From Armatimonadota bacterium (GTDB lineage: Bacteria > Armatimonadota > DTGP01 > JAKQQT01), in assembly GCA_036504095.1 (NCBI GenBank), contig DASXVS010000063.1, positions 1 to 64,000 of the forward strand: a stretch of DNA of 64,000 nt, given 5' to 3'. The notes under the pieces were generated by a model. It saw nothing but the letters and a program-made list of their open reading frames with translations, was not told where the DNA came from and ran no database searches. How positions within the stretch are numbered: the first letter of the stretch is position 1; each line of letters begins with the position of its first letter. Below are positions 35,300 to 43,636 of this stretch, one piece after another. A program made the translations under genes and the position numbers.

Positions 35300-35321
35300 G
35301 CCGGTATCCGTTCCCCGCGCG

Positions 35322-37151
35322 CTACTGATGTGTTTCCGGGCCTTCCGGAATCCGAGGCGCGTCAGGACGGGTCGCGCGTTTCTTCCACAGAAACTGAAAC
35401 AGGCTCTGGGAGGAGTTGGCGCGTACGATCGCGAGAACCACTCGGGGAAGGTGCTGCCCTCCGGGGTAAGCCAGGTACCGCGGCTCCCATTCCGGGCCGA
35501 ACTTCTCCTTGAATGCATGCAGCCCCGTGAAGCGATAGAAGTGGTTGAAGTGGTGGTACAGGACGTTGATGGCCGCATCCAGGGGAGCCCGTGATTCCGG
35601 TTTCGGCGCCAGTCCCTCGGTTTCGTTCTCCGGGCACTCCGAATCCGGCACCTGCAAGCCGGTGCTGAGGGGGCTGAGGCCCAGGCCGTACGCTTTCCAG
35701 CCCTCTTCCTTCAGCGCCAGGGCCTCCCTTGCGAAGAGGTATTCCATCACGCCGTTTGGCGCATCGGGACGGCGCCGCATGAGATCGGTGGCCCACCCGT
35801 CGGCACGGTACATAGGGACGAGTGTCTCGAACGCCAGGACGCGGTTCTGATCGTCCAGGGCAACCATCATCGGCTGCTGCGCGGCCACGGACGGATCCCA
35901 GTACCCCAGGCTGAACGTCTTCTCGCTGCCCTTCTGCTCTCCCAGCCACAGATCGCTGACCTCCTGAATGTGCGGAAGCAGGTTCAGCGGGTCCCTGGCG
36001 AGATCGTAACGGACGGCGCGCACACCTCGGCGCTCAATCGCCGCTACTGCGTTCCGCACTTTCTTCATCCGGCTTCCCTCCAGCGAGAATGAATCCAGGC
36101 GAACGACAGCATCTTCGCCGATCTTCAGGGTCCGAAGATCCGCCGCGTGATATGCCGGAAGATAGTCGGGCACGACCTGGTAAAACGCCGGCAGCCAGTC
36201 GTTGCGCGCGCACAGGTTGCAGAACTGAAGCACCAGTGCCGGCACCGCTTCGGGAGGCGCAATCGGGTCTCCCAGCGCCAGTGCGACGCCAGCGACGACC
36301 TTGTACGCGATAACGCCGGACCGATCCGCGTTGAAGCAATAGGCTTTATCCGGAAGCAGTGCGAAGTGGGCGATGGTGGTGCGCCCGTGCCGGATCAGCA
36401 ACCCTCGCACGACTTCGCGGTCGGCAACGGATGGCTTTCCGCGGACCAGCAGTGGTCGCAAGAGCATCATCAGGCCATACGACAGCGAACCGACGCTCAC
36501 CGCGTAGATGCTGTTAATGAACCACCACGCGCGAATCATCTGCCACGTGAGATGCCGTGAATACATCGCGTGAATGGGGTGGACCTTCACGTCCCCATAT
36601 TGGAAGAACAAGGCCAGAGTTGCTTGCAGCGCTTGCACCGGCGTGTGGATTCCCACAAACCGCGTGCGGAAGAACCAGAACCCATAAGTGCCATACACAG
36701 CGGTGAAAAGCACCGCCGCGATCACCGTCGCAACACCGTACCATACGGACGGCGGATCGCTTTCGGCATGGAAGAACGGCCTCAACAGGACGAGGCCCAG
36801 CATGAGCGAGAGGATAACGAGCGATTCCTCGTAGTCCAACCCTTTGATCAGATGGAGGCCGAACGAGACGCCAAGGGTGGCGAATGAAAGCGTCCACGCG
36901 ACACGCTTATGCCGCCAGAGCCCGCGGGCCAGCATGATGAGATAGAACCCCGCGACAACCGTCAGGATGCGGCTTCCGTGAACCACTTCCATGCCGAATA
37001 TCGCGTGGACGATTCGCGAACGCTCCGCGGTATGGGCGGCGATGACGCTGGCCACGTTGACGAATCCCATCAGCGCCACGAGAACGGCGATCAGCCGAAC
37101 CTCCAGGCGGCGCTTCAAGGGCATTTGGCTGGCGAAAATTGCGGTGTCCAT
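35322..37151 (-). CDS. MprF-type phosphatidylglycerol aminoacyltransferase (DUF2156)
   Basis: The 609-residue protein has six or more N-terminal membrane segments (to about residue 240) and a C-terminal DUF2156 domain (about 260-590). Conserved parts include KAYCFNADRSGVIAYKVVAGVALALGDPIAPP (in parts), RMKKVRNAVAAIERRGVRAVRYD, APNGVMEYLFAREALALKEEGW, LGLSPLS and LHAFKEKFGPEWEPRYLAYPGG. This is the catalytic unit that transfers an amino acid from aminoacyl-tRNA to phosphatidylglycerol. The flippase domain normally fused to it is absent; a separate flippase-like gene lies two genes upstream. It is the last gene of a five-gene operon. Confidence 0.88.
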   Translation of the reverse strand: MDTAIFASQMPLKRRLEVRLIAVLVALMGFVNVASVIAAHTAERSRIVHAIFGMEVVHGSRILTVVAGFYLIMLARGLWRHKRVAWTLSFATLGVSFGLHLIKGLDYEESLVILSLMLGLVLLRPFFHAESDPPSVWYGVATVIAAVLFTAVYGTYGFWFFRTRFVGIHTPVQALQATLALFFQYGDVKVHPIHAMYSRHLTWQMIRAWWFINSIYAVSVGSLSYGLMMLLRPLLVRGKPSVADREVVRGLLIRHGRTTIAHFALLPDKAYCFNADRSGVIAYKVVAGVALALGDPIAPPEAVPALVLQFCNLCARNDWLPAFYQVVPDYLPAYHAADLRTLKIGEDAVVRLDSFSLEGSRMKKVRNAVAAIERRGVRAVRYDLARDPLNLLPHIQEVSDLWLGEQKGSEKTFSLGYWDPSVAAQQPMMVALDDQNRVLAFETLVPMYRADGWATDLMRRRPDAPNGVMEYLFAREALALKEEGWKAYGLGLSPLSTGLQVPDSECPENETEGLAPKPESRAPLDAAINVLYHHFNHFYRFTGLHAFKEKFGPEWEPRYLAYPGGQHLPRVVLAIVRANSSQSLFQFLWKKRATRPDAPRIPEGPETHQ

Positions 37152-37161
37152 AGCGGAGGGC

Positions 37162-38094
37162 TCAGGGATGGGCGCGGAATCGCCGGTCAGCGAACAGCAG
37201 GCAGTCTCTCAGCCGCCGGCTCCAGAAGGCGAATCCGTGCGCGCCGGTGGAGATTCTGAGATCGGAGTCCGCGCCCAGTTCCTGGAGACGCGCCGCGAAT
37301 GCGCGGTTTTGGCGCACGTACTGGTCGTGCGCACCGCAGATCAGAAGTACATGCAGCGAGGCCGGATCGTGAACTGTCACGATGGTGTCCTGCGGAGAAT
37401 TCGCCCGCCACAGATCCATCCGCCCGCCAAGTACATGCCGGGCGATCGGGGTGAAATCCGCCGCCCGGAAATAGCCCGACATTGCACAGGCAACCGAGAA
37501 CACCTCCGGATGGCGGACGGCCAGGTTGGCGGCAGCGAAGCCCCCCATCGACACACCCGCGACCGCGCGGTGTCCGGCATCCGCTTTCGTCCGATAGTTC
37601 GCATCCACTCGGTTCACGACTTCATCCAGTAGATACCGTTCCACACTCCACGATCCGTCCGGACGATCCATCGCGCCATTGCAGTCGAACTGCCCGCGCG
37701 GACCCTGAAGGTCGGGGCAGACCAGTATCATCGGCGCGACGGAATCCGCCAGGATCATCTTTTCCAGCGTAACGTTCGCGCTGCCCTTGACAACCCAGTC
37801 CCGCGCTTGGCCGGGGCAGCCGTGCAGCAGATAGACAGCCGGGTACCTTACCTCCGCATTCTCCGGGTCATCGTACCCGGGAGGCAGGTAGACGAGCATA
37901 TCTTTGTTTGCTTTGAGAATCCGGCTGCGGAAAGCCACCCGCCGCAGGGATCCGGACATGCGCGCATGCAGGTCCTGCTCCTCCTGCCGGTCACTCAGCA
38001 GATCGTTGACCAGGACACCGACCGGAATCGCGACAATGACGAACGCCGCCGCGGCCAACGCGTAGCCCAATCGTGTTTTGCGGTTCATTTTCAT
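37162..38094 (-). CDS. Membrane-anchored esterase (esterase D family)
   Basis: The 310-residue protein has one N-terminal hydrophobic anchor (about 8-28) and an esterase-D-type domain: DMLVYLPPGYDDP, YPAVYLLHGCPGQ, and the nucleophile elbow AVAGVSMGGFAAANLA. Later come LLICGAHDQYV with the likely Asp and STGAHGFAFW with the catalytic His. Homologues include trehalose mycolyltransferases and feruloyl esterases. It lies in the same operon as the lipid aminoacyltransferase (10 bp before it), so an envelope substrate is likely. Confidence 0.85.
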   Translation of the reverse strand: MKMNRKTRLGYALAAAAFVIVAIPVGVLVNDLLSDRQEEQDLHARMSGSLRRVAFRSRILKANKDMLVYLPPGYDDPENAEVRYPAVYLLHGCPGQARDWVVKGSANVTLEKMILADSVAPMILVCPDLQGPRGQFDCNGAMDRPDGSWSVERYLLDEVVNRVDANYRTKADAGHRAVAGVSMGGFAAANLAVRHPEVFSVACAMSGYFRAADFTPIARHVLGGRMDLWRANSPQDTIVTVHDPASLHVLLICGAHDQYVRQNRAFAARLQELGADSDLRISTGAHGFAFWSRRLRDCLLFADRRFRAHP

Positions 38095-38109
38095 CGTCGT
38101 GGCGGCAGG

Positions 38110-39162
38110 TCAGGCGCCCTTCGTTCCGTGTAAAGCGTGCTTCGCCAGCACCACACCGATCGGTATCGGAAGCCAGTATTGAATCAGCCGGTACGTTCCG
38201 GTTACCAGCATGGCCACCGTGAGGTTGACGCCGAAAAGAGTGTGAAACGCACCGGCCATGCCGACCTCAAAAGCCCCCAACTGGCCGGGTATGAATGAGA
38301 TGAAGCCCAGCAGCATCGCGATCACGAAACCGGCGGCGACGAACCCGATCGGCTGCGGGTGCCCGAACGCCTGGAAAACGCACCACACGTTGAAGACATC
38401 CAGCACATTGTAGCCCAGCGCGGGAGCAACCGGCCTCAACAGGCCTTTCGGGTTTGCCGTGACATCACGACGCAGGGTACCCATACGCTCGACCATCGCC
38501 GATGCGGAAGCCTCTGGAGTTTCCGAATGCTCGCGCGAGGGGCGCAGCCTTCGCAGCCTTCGGACGATCCCCGCAAGTGTTCTCTCAAGAGCCTCCTGTT
38601 TGCCCAATCCCCACCAGAGGAACCCGATCACGCCACCAATCACCGCCACCAGAAGCGCCGCCGCGAGCACTGCCCTTCCCGGTAAATGCCCGATTACGGC
38701 CAGGTACACAAACGTGGCGGCAACGACAAGCAAGTACGTCAGGTAGTCATAGATGTAGGTGAGACCGATGGCGAAGAGGGCGCGGTCCGGCGGTACGCCT
38801 TCCGACTGCAAGGTCGCCACCATCAACGCCGAACCGCTCGCCCCACCGGTGGGCACGATGCGATTCACCGCGTTGAAGGCTGTGACCTTGGCAATCATCT
38901 CGCCCCAACCGAAGCGGTAACCGGCGAGTCCCAGGGCCGTCTGAAACAGCTTGCCGTTGCTGACGCTTCGCAGACACTCCACGATGCAGGCGAGCACCAG
39001 CCAGCCCGGCCGGGCGCCGCGGAGGAGGAATGCCATGTGGCGGAGGTCGCCGAGTTTGAGCAGCACGAACGCGCCGCAAATGACGAAAATCGCCGGCAAG
39101 ACGATAGCTCGCCACCCAAGGGAGGTCCCCGCAGCGCTTGCGTTGCTCCGACGTTTGTCCAT
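38110..39162 (-). CDS. LPG_synthase_TM / UPF0104-type flippase-like membrane protein
   Basis: The ATG at 39162 (MDKRRSNASAAGTSLG) gives 350 residues; longer readings overlap the deacetylase gene. It has about eight hydrophobic segments and the family's conserved pieces: VTAFNAVNRIVPTGGASGSALM, LTYIYDYLTYLLV, GFISFIPGQLGAFEVGMAG and TYRLIQYWLPIPIGVV. This is the domain that, in MprF, moves lysyl-phosphatidylglycerol across the membrane; stand-alone members include AglD-like proteins. With the DUF2156 enzyme two genes downstream it could form a split MprF. Confidence 0.9.
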   Translation of the reverse strand: MDKRRSNASAAGTSLGWRAIVLPAIFVICGAFVLLKLGDLRHMAFLLRGARPGWLVLACIVECLRSVSNGKLFQTALGLAGYRFGWGEMIAKVTAFNAVNRIVPTGGASGSALMVATLQSEGVPPDRALFAIGLTYIYDYLTYLLVVAATFVYLAVIGHLPGRAVLAAALLVAVIGGVIGFLWWGLGKQEALERTLAGIVRRLRRLRPSREHSETPEASASAMVERMGTLRRDVTANPKGLLRPVAPALGYNVLDVFNVWCVFQAFGHPQPIGFVAAGFVIAMLLGFISFIPGQLGAFEVGMAGAFHTLFGVNLTVAMLVTGTYRLIQYWLPIPIGVVLAKHALHGTKGA

Positions 39163-39169
39163 GGCTCGT

Positions 39170-39895
39170 TCAGATCGAAAGCGGTTTGCCGGGCTTCTGG
39201 AGGTGGAGTTTCCACCACAGCCCCACCAGACTGGTGCCATAACTAACGGCGTGGCGGGGAATCAGAAGCGGATCGGTCCCTCTGCCGGCGCGATTTCGCT
39301 CGCACGTGAGCGCAAGGCGATAGCCCGCCGCGCGGACCGCTTCCACGGCAGCACGGTCGAGATCGCCGTAAGGGTAGCAAAAATCGACTACTGGACGGTT
39401 GAGGGCTTCTTCCAGCGCCTCGCGGCTCCCGACAATTTCGCGCTGCAGATCGATCGGATCGAGGCCGGACAACCGCCGGTGGGAGGCCGTGTGACATCCG
39501 ACCCGGGCGCCCTCCGAGTCCACTCTGCGCAGCGCATCCGCCGACATCAGACGCGCGCTGCGGAGGCCTTCGGACGGCAGCCAGGCCGCTTCAGAATCCA
39601 TCAGCCCGGAAACCATGTAGACGCTCGAAGGAAAGCCGCGGCGCCGAATCGCCGGGTGGGCTATGGCGGCGAAATCCGCGTAGCCGTCATCGAACGAGAG
39701 GTGAACCGCGCGCGAAGGGATCTCCTTGGCGCCAGTCACGCAGGCATAGACTTCATCGAGTGACAGCACGTTGTACCGGCCAGCCTTGAGGAACGCCATC
39801 TGGCGGCGGAACGCGCCGGCATCGCAGTAGACTGCGCGATGCGCGTCCACCCGGCCGAACGTTCCCACCTGGTGATACATGAGGATGGTAATCAT
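39170..39895 (-). CDS. Polysaccharide deacetylase (NodB domain)
   Basis: The 241-residue protein begins ILMYHQV and has the NodB motifs VHLSFDDGYADF (two metal-pocket Asp), GARVGCHTASHRRLSG (the HxxxH-type metal ligands), FCYPYGDLD and LALTCERN. No signal peptide is visible. Family members deacetylate peptidoglycan, chitin-like or exopolysaccharide chains. It follows the GT4 gene by 26 bp and precedes the flippase-like gene by 7 bp, so all belong to one operon. Confidence 0.92.
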   Translation of the reverse strand: MITILMYHQVGTFGRVDAHRAVYCDAGAFRRQMAFLKAGRYNVLSLDEVYACVTGAKEIPSRAVHLSFDDGYADFAAIAHPAIRRRGFPSSVYMVSGLMDSEAAWLPSEGLRSARLMSADALRRVDSEGARVGCHTASHRRLSGLDPIDLQREIVGSREALEEALNRPVVDFCYPYGDLDRAAVEAVRAAGYRLALTCERNRAGRGTDPLLIPRHAVSYGTSLVGLWWKLHLQKPGKPLSI

Positions 39896-39921
39896 GGGCG
39901 ACGCGTGTGACGGGCAAGGCC

Positions 39922-40992
39922 TCAGCCCTTCAAGAGTTCGCGATACTGGGTTTCGATATCGTCGACCATCCGTTTCACGGTGAAACGTTCGCGAACCATC
40001 TTGTCGGCGGCCTCGACATAGCGGCAGACCTCGGGACCATCCAGAGCACTGGCAAGGCCGGCGCCAAGGGATTCGGGGCTGTCTGGTTCCACCAGAATTC
40101 CGGTTTCGCCGTGCGTCACCATTTCCGGCGTTCCGCCAACCCGCGAGGCAACGACGGGCGTGCGCGCGGCCATCGCCTCCAAAAGGGTCAGCGAAAACGA
40201 CTCCCTCCGGGAGGGCGCGGCGAGGACATCGTATGCGCCGAGCACTTCGTACGCGTTCGGCACGGTGCCGAGGAATTTCACCGAGCCGTCAAGGTTATGC
40301 CGCTCCACGAACGAGCGGAGCTTGAGTTCCGTGTCGTCGTCTCCACTGCCGGCGAGGACGAACGTTACATTCGGACGCTCCAACTTCCATTTGGCGGCAA
40401 CCTGGAGAAGGATATCGATCCCCTTATCCGGGATCAGGCGCGCAAGCATACCGACGACCTTGCCGCCCGGCACGACGCCCCACTCCGCGCGAAGCGCGGC
40501 GACCCTTCCCTCCGGCGTGCCGCACGCGGGGATTTCAATGCCGTTGTGCACGGTGCGAAGCAAGCCATCCGGCACACCGTGGCGGAGAAGGTTCTGGCGC
40601 GCGGCATCGGACACGCAGATGACGCGGTCCGCGCCCGCGTAGTATTTGTAGGTGTGCGTAGCGTGACACGAAGCGATAACCGGAATACCGAGGCGGTGGC
40701 CGGCCTTGACGGCGTAGAACGTGCCGCGCGTCATATGAGAGTGAATGATGTCTGCGTGCGTCATCCGGGCGAGTCGGCCCAGCCGTCCTACGGAAGTAAC
40801 GTCGAGGAGTCCGTCCATCGCCAGGTGAAACGGCTTCACGCGCGTTCCCTGTACGGCGTCCCACATCCAGCCGCGGTTGGGGCAGGCGAGGTAAACCTGG
40901 TGTCCACGGTCCATCAGGGCTTCGCCAAGCGAAACTACATGGCGCTCAACGCCCCCGATGGTATGGCTGTGCATGACCTGGATGATTGTCAT
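39922..40992 (-). CDS. GT4-family glycosyltransferase
   Basis: The 356-residue protein has the GT-B pattern of family 4: HTIGGVERHVVSLGEALMDRGH at the N-terminus, GVVPGGKVVGMLARLIPDKGIDILL in the linker (in parts), FVLAGSGDDDTELK, VKFLGTVPNAYEVLGAYDVLAAPSRRESFSLTLLEAMA (in parts; E-x7-E nucleotide-sugar site) and VVASRVGGTPEMV. It transfers a sugar from a nucleotide donor, probably to a lipid or surface glycan. It is the first gene of the envelope operon, 60 bp after metX, and may have its own promoter. Confidence 0.93.
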   Translation of the reverse strand: MTIIQVMHSHTIGGVERHVVSLGEALMDRGHQVYLACPNRGWMWDAVQGTRVKPFHLAMDGLLDVTSVGRLGRLARMTHADIIHSHMTRGTFYAVKAGHRLGIPVIASCHATHTYKYYAGADRVICVSDAARQNLLRHGVPDGLLRTVHNGIEIPACGTPEGRVAALRAEWGVVPGGKVVGMLARLIPDKGIDILLQVAAKWKLERPNVTFVLAGSGDDDTELKLRSFVERHNLDGSVKFLGTVPNAYEVLGAYDVLAAPSRRESFSLTLLEAMAARTPVVASRVGGTPEMVTHGETGILVEPDSPESLGAGLASALDGPEVCRYVEAADKMVRERFTVKRMVDDIETQYRELLKG

Positions 40993-41052: not shown

Positions 41053-42216
41053 TTATGGGCGCGGGACATCACCGCGAAGGAAATCTTTGATGAGTGCGCC
41101 GACCCGGTCGATCTCGAGGAGACATGCGTCGTGACCGTCTTCGCTGTCGATCTCCTCGTATCTCGCGTCGACGCCGGCGTATTTTGCGGCGGCGACCGCG
41201 CCTCGGAGTTCGGCCGGAGGAAACAACAGGTCGGAGGCGACGCCGACGACCATCAGGCGTGCCCTGATCGCCTGGAATGCCTCCTCACGGCTGCCGAATG
41301 GGCGGGCGATGTCCATCGTTTCGAGTGAACGCAACGCTGTGAGGTAGCAGTTGGCGTCGAACCGCGCCACGAGTTTGGCGCCTTCGTTATCCAGGTATTC
41401 CTCGACGGCGAACTTGCTCGGCAGGTTTTCCCCATCGTGCCCATCTGCGTTTGAATTGCCAAACCACCCGCCGAGGTAAGGCGAGGAGTAATAGGTGATC
41501 GTTGAAATCTTACGCGCAAGGCTGAGGCCCGCGAGCGGCAGGCGCCCCGTGCCATAGTAATCGCCGCCCTGGTAGTCCGGATCTGTCAGGAATGCCTGCC
41601 GTGCCACGTAGTTCCAGGCGATCAGCATCGCGGACGCCACCGGAGCGGACGCCACCGGGATGCAGTGCCGGACCATATCCGGGTAGGCCACCGCGAACTC
41701 CCAACTCTGCGACCCGCCCATGCTAGGCCCTGAAACCGCCTCCAACTGGCGGACTCCAAGGTGACGCAAGAGATGCCAGTGCGCCGTTACGATGTCGCGG
41801 ATCGTGACGTCGGGAAATGCGCTGCCGTAAGGCCGCCCGGTCTTGGGGTTAATACTCGCGGCGCACGTGGAGCCGCCCCAGCCGCCGAGCACGCCGGCGC
41901 AGACGACGAAGTGTTTATCCGTGTCAAACGCGCGCCCGGGGCCAATGAGCGGGTCCCACCACCCGACGTAATCCCGGCCCTCCATACGTCCCGCCGCGTG
42001 CATGTCGCCCGTCAGGCTGTGGCACACCAAAACGCCATTGTCGGCGTTTTCGTTGAGTGTACCGTATGTCTGGTAGGCCACGGTGATCGGCCCGAGGCGA
42101 TCGCCGCAGACGAGGGGCATTTCGTCCGGTGATTCCGCGAAGGTGAAAGTTTCCGTCTTCGCGCTAAGTCCGCTCTCGGCGAACGGGCGCGGTTTTCCAA
42201 AGAGTGATTCTGCCAT
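41053..42216 (-). CDS. metX: Homoserine O-acetyltransferase
   Basis: The 387-residue enzyme acetylates homoserine for methionine synthesis. The family blocks are complete: ITVAYQTYGTLNENADNGVLVCH, GVLGGWGGSTCAASINPKTG, GPSMGGSQSWEFAVAYP with the catalytic Ser, MVVGVASDLLFPP with the Asp, and SEDGHDACLLE with the His. Specificity for acetyl- rather than succinyl-CoA is assumed from the family. It follows metY after 79 bp of spacer filled by a GTGTCAG-word hairpin, so the product and the next enzyme of one pathway are encoded together. Confidence 0.95.
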   Translation of the reverse strand: MAESLFGKPRPFAESGLSAKTETFTFAESPDEMPLVCGDRLGPITVAYQTYGTLNENADNGVLVCHSLTGDMHAAGRMEGRDYVGWWDPLIGPGRAFDTDKHFVVCAGVLGGWGGSTCAASINPKTGRPYGSAFPDVTIRDIVTAHWHLLRHLGVRQLEAVSGPSMGGSQSWEFAVAYPDMVRHCIPVASAPVASAMLIAWNYVARQAFLTDPDYQGGDYYGTGRLPLAGLSLARKISTITYYSSPYLGGWFGNSNADGHDGENLPSKFAVEEYLDNEGAKLVARFDANCYLTALRSLETMDIARPFGSREEAFQAIRARLMVVGVASDLLFPPAELRGAVAAAKYAGVDARYEEIDSEDGHDACLLEIDRVGALIKDFLRGDVPRP

Positions 42217-42221
42217 GTTCT

Positions 42222-43636
<1,415 letters not shown>

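Follow-up and report, generated by a model that had tools for sequence, protein, structure and literature searches.

A probable natural split of MprF, encoded with an esterase beside a glycosyltransferase–deacetylase pair in an Armatimonadota genome

We describe here a run of five genes (35,322–40,992, minus strand) in a 64,000-nucleotide stretch of DNA from an Armatimonadota bacterium (contig DASXVS010000063.1, positions 1–64,000), hereafter the window; the source genome, G000, measures 4.68 Mb and is 98.6% complete. In the order of reading, the genes encode a glycosyltransferase of family 4 (GT4), a NodB-type N-deacetylase, a flippase of the PF03706/UPF0104 family, a putative membrane-anchored serine esterase of the carbohydrate esterase family 1 (CE1) or EstA type, and an aminoacyl-lipid synthase. 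MprF lowers the negative charge of the bacterial surface and protects against cationic peptides and acid. The flippase and the synthase very probably constitute a naturally split MprF, the esterase gene being located between the genes for the two halves, and on balance we favour a reading of the whole locus in two parts, a split MprF that has a hydrolase of its own and, joined to it, a separate GT4–deacetylase cassette. The identities of the genes, the half of MprF that each of two proteins represents, the predicted folds of the flippase and the esterase, and the conservation of the module are documented below.

The two halves of MprF

The synthase gene (35,322–37,151, minus strand) encodes a protein of 609 amino acids (aa) that matches PF09924 with 258.4 bits (cut-off 27.5). 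This DUF2156/PF09924 protein aligns with positions 319–838 of the 841 in the bifunctional MprF model NF033480 (377.7 bits, cut-off 600) and with residues 332–848 of the Rhizobium MprF structure (RtMprF, 6lvf; E 1.2e-50), and its N-terminal part has about six membrane segments. Given the span of these two matches, the protein comprises membrane subdomain 2 together with the catalytic domain, and is thus more than a bare synthase. It falls within an Armatimonadota clade in which most proteins are unfused and a single one, L035, is fused at least in part; the open reading frame (ORF) of L035 extends past the end of its contig. Two short PF09924 proteins of 428–441 aa, in genomes G051 and G077 (L024, 8501–9826; L042, 7740–9026), start to match the window synthase only at the catalytic part and may be devoid of membrane subdomain 2.

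The flippase gene (38,110–39,162, minus strand; PF03706, 107.5 bits) encodes 350 aa that correspond to membrane subdomain 1. Neither its sequence alone nor its profile matched a solved structure, and the fold comparison alone found MprF: its AlphaFold 2 (AF2) model (predicted local distance difference test, pLDDT, 77.6), built on an alignment whose fused MprF rows may bias it towards MprF, aligns with six MprF structures at Z scores of 19.1–21.4 (265–273 residues), the next best Z being 5.6. The region covered is residues 26–357 of these structures, and Foldseek returned the same six structures (E 1.9e-5 to 2.4e-3; next match 0.10).

Subdomain 1 of MprF has been placed at Leu24–Arg325 and subdomain 2 at Ser334–Arg530 (PMC8131360). 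Set against these limits, the coverage of MprF by the flippase (26–357) and by the synthase (319–838) puts the natural cut at the subdomain boundary, with subdomain 1 on one side and subdomain 2 plus the catalytic domain on the other. This is the same place where Staphylococcus aureus MprF works as two proteins: when it is cut after membrane segment 8, the separate co-expressed parts are reported to restore peptide resistance and translocation of lysyl-phosphatidylglycerol (Lys-PG), and a protein lacking the first eight membrane segments to still make Lys-PG (PMC2774229). An earlier note on this DNA had proposed a split MprF cut between flippase and synthase; the split itself holds, by profile coverage, by the fold of the flippase and by the co-location of the halves in other Armatimonadota and in cyanobacteria described below, and the position of the cut has to be corrected as above. 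Compared with bifunctional MprF/LpiA, the locus has the same catalytic domain, to which the second membrane half is likewise fused, and, by fold, the first membrane half. It differs in having two proteins with an esterase gene between them, and in the absence of any single polypeptide above the 600-bit cut-off of NF033480, the halves scoring 377.7 and 59.1 bits.

Several properties of the flippase weigh against its assignment to MprF. Its score with TIGR00374, a generic model, is 71.5 bits and exceeds that with the MprF model (59.1 bits). In a tree built from 41 flippase domains it falls outside those of fused MprF, and its neighbours there, on long branches, are stand-alone, split or divergent proteins. 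Tyr303 and Arg304 of RtMprF are Tyr324 and Arg325 in the window flippase (mapped via L060), but the position of Tyr307 is occupied by Gln328. The flippase is read here as an MprF-type protein, either an ancient split-off or a recruited one; a recent fission of a fused MprF is unsupported for it, given its position outside the fused domains in the tree.

An acidic residue at position 255, mapped by spacing only, was considered as the counterpart of RtMprF Asp234. With L144 excluded beforehand, an acid at 255 together with Tyr/Phe-Arg at 324–325 is found in 13/16 fused, 3/3 split, 2/2 divergent and 1/17 stand-alone flippases, but in none of six cyanobacterial flippases, although these are the clearest MprF halves, so that the combination does not define MprF. 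G000 encodes a second PF03706 protein (L025, contig C46, 9643–10665) with the acid and Tyr-Arg residues of MprF-type flippases; there is no synthase nearby, and the flanking genes are one for a BBP2 porin and, on the other side, some without known function.

Conservation of the module

A synthase is present in 19 of the 291 genomes of the phylum. We surveyed 94 synthase loci with esterase and flippase profiles, 18 of them from Armatimonadota and 76 named loci drawn from the best 80 loci of one scan (four duplicates dropped), counting neighbours within 3 kb of the synthase. An unfused synthase has a PF03706 gene within this distance at 5/6 Armatimonadota loci, the window and its close relative L045 excluded, and at none of the eight unfused Chloroflexota loci. 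In Cyanobacteria, 23/49 unfused synthases have a PF03706 gene and 39/49 a PF00756 esterase gene nearby (37/44 where at least 1.5 kb of sequence lies on each side); no PF00756 esterase is found at two further loci, of which one is broken and the other lies at a contig edge. Since many of the cyanobacterial loci come from close relatives, they cannot be counted as independent events. Among the 18 Armatimonadota loci other than L045, a PF00756 esterase stands near an MprF or synthase in eight (five fused, three unfused). Because this linkage recurs, we assign the esterase to the MprF module, and flippase, esterase and synthase together look like a true module.

The cyanobacterial loci resemble the window in the clustering of the three components, unfused MprF halves and PF00756 esterase. 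All seven cyanobacterial flippases tested are PF03706 proteins, two of them align with positions 4–300 (227.8 bits, L065) and 7–303 (220 bits) of the NCBIfam MprF model, and a cyanobacterial synthase aligns with positions 316–840 (508.3 bits). They differ from the window in having one or two esterases, a flippase that, where present, is divergent or directly upstream, and no GT4–deacetylase pair. Nostocales loci (L065, L059, L074 and similar ones) have a tandem esterase pair before the synthase and a divergent flippase, and the members of the tandem pair seem to be of two distinct types that occur jointly time and again.

Both the separability of MprF and the individual components are established knowledge. 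In the open-licence PubMed Central (PMC) literature we found no report of a natural split MprF with an esterase, no report of aminoacyl-phosphatidylglycerol in cyanobacteria or Armatimonadota, and no study of the function of the cyanobacterial split MprF–esterase clusters; nor did this literature yield a conserved, natural cut of MprF between its subdomains that is accompanied by a CE1-type esterase. That nature cuts MprF at the boundary engineered in S. aureus, and that a secreted esterase is conserved beside it, points to an independent route for removing surface aminoacyl lipids, and the module predicts aminoacyl lipids in Armatimonadota and in many cyanobacteria. The recurring arrangement suggests an overlooked making, export and stripping of charged membrane lipids. 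It also makes two questions accessible to test: can flippases and synthases be exchanged as modules, and is a single flippase able to serve the pathways of two head groups?

The esterase

The esterase gene (37,162–38,094, minus strand) encodes 310 aa with a PF00756 match of 89.9 bits. The nucleophile Ser182 and His286 are invariant in 18/18 aligned esterases from synthase loci. The AF2 model (pLDDT 83.5) has a CE1 fold with the feruloyl esterase 5vol as best match in the Protein Data Bank (E 2.6e-23), and the N-terminus forms a helix (residues 5–45) with a strongly hydrophobic stretch. By these features the protein is a serine esterase of the CE1 type, anchored in the membrane, and its Ser/His site is intact.

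The PF00756 family includes mycolyltransferases, and the chain of Protein PS1 (6sx4), presumably a corynebacterial mycolyltransferase, is among the sequence matches of the esterase (E 2.5e-7). The enzyme could then be a transferase that takes the aminoacyl group off the exported lipid and passes it to a different acceptor in the envelope, much as mycolyltransferases do with mycolates; its nearest solved relatives, both by sequence and by fold, are feruloyl esterases and EstA-like hydrolases, and we give this alternative a low probability.

The encoding of an aminoacyl-lipid synthase with an envelope serine hydrolase is shared with acvB-lpiA of Agrobacterium and with PA0919 of Pseudomonas, which we take to be linked with MprF. 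In acvB-lpiA, a periplasmic hydrolase is reported in one operon with an MprF homologue (PMC13197417). The hydrolase of the locus differs in being of the CE1 type (PF00756) and not of the VirJ/AcvB type: PF06057 did not match the window esterase at E <= 0.01. As to a possible replacement of VirJ by the esterase, VirJ was found in none of 20 genomes by a search whose control matched nowhere either. The repeated linkage and the acvB-lpiA precedent lead us to propose, at about even confidence, that the likeliest job of the esterase would be to remove the amino acid from the exported lipid.

Other observations on the esterase weigh against the favoured reading of the locus. Its gene shows the lowest conservation among the five when compared with L045. 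A PF00756 esterase was found within 3 kb of the synthase at none of the 23 Chloroflexota loci, nor at the one Actinomycetota locus. Finally, not counting the window's own, the phylum holds 15 esterase relatives at E <= 2e-30, of which 11 adjoin a synthase, which speaks for the favoured reading, and four do not (G044 contig 1, G037, G253 and G079 contig 98, the last of which may be unlinked merely because its contigs are short). The relatives in G037 and G253, two genomes of one genus (L139, 8342–9139; L142, 4791–5591), lie, at synthase-free loci, beside what appears by eye to be an ABC-2-type membrane protein. We know of no report of a CE1-type esterase acting on aminoacyl or amino-sugar lipids.

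In G044, a 504-aa esterase is encoded directly after a split flippase–synthase pair (L023, 10,018–11,532); it has about 228 extra N-terminal residues with, by eye, several hydrophobic stretches and no Pfam match.

The GT4–deacetylase cassette

The first gene (39,922–40,992, minus strand) encodes a cytoplasmic GT4 enzyme of 356 aa (PF00534, 126 bits; PF13439, 96.5 bits), and the second (39,170–39,895, minus strand) a deacetylase of 241 aa (PF01522, 76.3 bits) with DDG and HTASH motifs, which presumably bind metal. Lacking a signal peptide and any hydrophobic segment, the deacetylase should be a cytoplasmic enzyme, which is also the proposal for GpgD.

This pair is a separable cassette, because G001, a genome of the same family and another genus (92% complete), carries it at the corresponding site, where the remaining three genes are missing. 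The order there is metY–metX–GT4–deacetylase–AI-2E–NTP_transf_5, with 6 bp between the stop codons of the deacetylase and AI-2E genes, and flippase, esterase and synthase are neither at the syntenic site nor detected elsewhere in the genome. The block missing from G001 (window positions 35,300–39,169, minus strand; the G001 site is locus L034) was either gained here or lost in G001; a recent foreign origin is not supported by its composition, its G+C content (0.617–0.630) comparing with 0.612–0.646 in the neighbouring genes. Relatives of the deacetylase occur in 134/291 genomes of the phylum. At 15 Armatimonadota deacetylase loci that were opened, 14 among the best matches and one lower in the list, a GT4 gene adjoins the deacetylase in 13, and none of them has a flippase, esterase or synthase; conversely, no deacetylase was found at 20 loci with a stand-alone PF03706 protein. 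The five genes were found together only in the window genome and in L045, so that we discarded the idea of an old five-gene unit. The earlier note had held that unlinked genes in close relatives would speak against its operon, and such unlinking is seen in G001 for the GT4–deacetylase pair versus the rest, and not within flippase–esterase–synthase.

A further possibility, which would suit the neighbouring metX and metY genes, is that GT4 and deacetylase make a low-molecular-weight, bacillithiol-like thiol. All the best NCBIfam models for the GT4 protein are under their cut-offs, among them BshA (101.6 bits) and MshA (88.6 bits), and the metY–metX synteny is shared with G001. BshC, however, was found in neither G000 nor G001 by a search that was positive in three control genomes, and the deacetylase, by its Pfam match, is outside the BshB family; a thiol product is highly improbable. 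An amino-sugar lipid is our best guess for the product, a tentative one.

The closest precedents are two amino-sugar lipid systems. In Pseudomonas aeruginosa, GpgS and GpgD are reported to make N-acetylglucosaminyl- and glucosaminyl-phosphatidylglycerol (GlcNAc-PG and GlcN-PG), while for gpgF a flippase product is predicted (PMC12713373); HexSDF of Clostridioides difficile is reported to make an aminohexosyl glycolipid (PMC10128005). The window shares with gpgSDF a GT4 enzyme and a deacetylase, both without membrane segments, and a UPF0104 flippase in third place. It differs in the low score of its GT4 protein on the GpgS equivalog NF053787 (61 bits, cut-off 480), in a deacetylase that matched PF01522 where GpgD is reported as COG3233 (no COG3233 search was made here), and in the esterase and synthase genes that follow the flippase. 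With hexSDF it has in common a polysaccharide-deacetylase-type enzyme and an MprF-like flippase beside a glycosyltransferase; the differences are that HexS is annotated as a monogalactosyldiacylglycerol (MGDG)-synthase type, the window enzyme having GT4 domains only, and that hexSDF, as described, comprises no esterase or synthase.

The order GT4–deacetylase–flippase is thus that of gpgS-gpgD-gpgF (PMC12713373) and hexS-hexD-hexF (PMC10128005), and the flippase is nearer to stand-alone UPF0104 proteins by tree and by TIGR00374 score. It could accordingly belong to the GT4–deacetylase pair as part of a GpgSDF/HexSDF-like amino-sugar set, the synthase being merely downstream and working without a flippase half. 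This is unlikely in view of G001, which holds GT4 and deacetylase and no detectable PF03706 protein, of the lack of co-occurrence of flippase and deacetylase at the sampled deacetylase and stand-alone PF03706 loci (0/15 and 0/20), and of the joint presence of unfused flippase and synthase at 5/6 Armatimonadota and 23/49 cyanobacterial loci.

Alternatively, all five proteins might serve one lipid, GT4 and deacetylase building an amino-sugar lipid that the synthase aminoacylates, the flippase exports and the esterase trims. The tight order of the five genes, kept in L045, and the reported ability of known MprF enzymes to aminoacylate glycolipids (PMC11630815) are in keeping with a joint product, but the G001 site has the GT4–deacetylase pair without the rest and, among the 94 synthase loci, only L045 has the deacetylase, which makes this improbable. 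The suggestion in the earlier note that the other genes build or trim one new lipid therefore survives for the esterase, which is linked to the MprF module, and is weakened for the separable GT4 and deacetylase.

Proposed mechanism

For the split MprF with hydrolase and the separate GT4–deacetylase cassette we infer the following, which holds for all activities and substrates, for the amino acid and for the part played in regulation. The 609-aa protein would transfer an amino acid from aminoacyl-tRNA onto a lipid head group in the inner leaflet, the lipid being most likely phosphatidylglycerol. The 350-aa protein would dock on the membrane part of the synthase, complete the translocation path of MprF and move the aminoacyl lipid to the outer leaflet. 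There the anchored esterase would cut the aminoacyl ester in the periplasm, returning the lipid and making surface charge tunable, as with AcvB, an enzyme of another family. The cytoplasmic GT4 and deacetylase would perhaps make an amino-sugar lipid, for example glucosaminyl-PG, which the flippase may serve as well.

The simplest reading is that two lipid modifications are encoded on one transcript in this genus. The flippase gene is located where two units meet, each of them similar to a known three-part set: a gpgSDF-like GT4–deacetylase–flippase and the flippase–esterase–synthase, a split MprF plus hydrolase. Pseudomonas MprF is reported to move many lipids, with no energy source (PMC11980842), and this broad range makes flippase sharing possible, as the aminoacylation of glycolipids by MprF (PMC11630815) makes one joint product conceivable. 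It is a rather doubtful extension that the freed flippase half is a shared exporter of two cationic-lipid pathways in one operon, or that both head-group steps work on a single molecule and yield an aminoacylated amino-sugar lipid, and that the CE1-type esterase would strip or transfer the amino acid outside the cell, also in cyanobacteria.

Gene calls, selection and neighbouring genes

Upstream of the five minus-strand genes is metX, and at their other end is a convergent gene of the AI-2E family. ORFs and profile matches confirmed the families and the gaps of 7–26 bp given in the earlier note; from GT4 to synthase the gaps are 26, 7, 15 and 10 bp, with the flippase starting at the ATG at 39,162. 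The mechanical ORF of the flippase starts at 39,240 and would overlap the deacetylase gene by 71 bp; we chose 39,162 because L045 (metagenome-assembled genome GL140_5_metabat_74_sub) keeps the same start (350 aa) and the same 7-bp gap.

L045 has all five genes in unchanged order, with protein identities of 88% (GT4), 85% (deacetylase), 84% (flippase), 75% (esterase) and 90% (synthase, 248 residues only); an order kept at 75–90% identity argues against a chance reading of frames. The ratios of non-synonymous to synonymous substitution (dN/dS) against L045 are 0.079, 0.096, 0.112, 0.143 and 0.085 in the same order, the last for the first 248 codons, all that L045 offers. These values (0.079–0.143) identify the five genes as coding for selected proteins, under purifying selection, with the esterase the least constrained. 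Their G+C content is 0.617–0.643, and that of the window 0.618.

A promoter scan gave nothing exceeding chance, and a terminator scan found 10 candidates, no excess over shuffled sequences (7.1 ± 2.8). The metX and metY genes (41,053–43,591) immediately precede the five on this strand, at gaps of 60 and 79 bp, so that the transcript may be longer, perhaps starting at metY. G000 has a second GT4–deacetylase pair (L043, contig C48, 3137–7734), flanked by a gene for a PHP-domain protein on one side and one of the acyltransferase-3 family on the other. Just beyond the window (L026, contig C63, 60,000–78,000), a run of glycosyltransferase-like genes with another deacetylase relative resembles an exopolysaccharide cluster.

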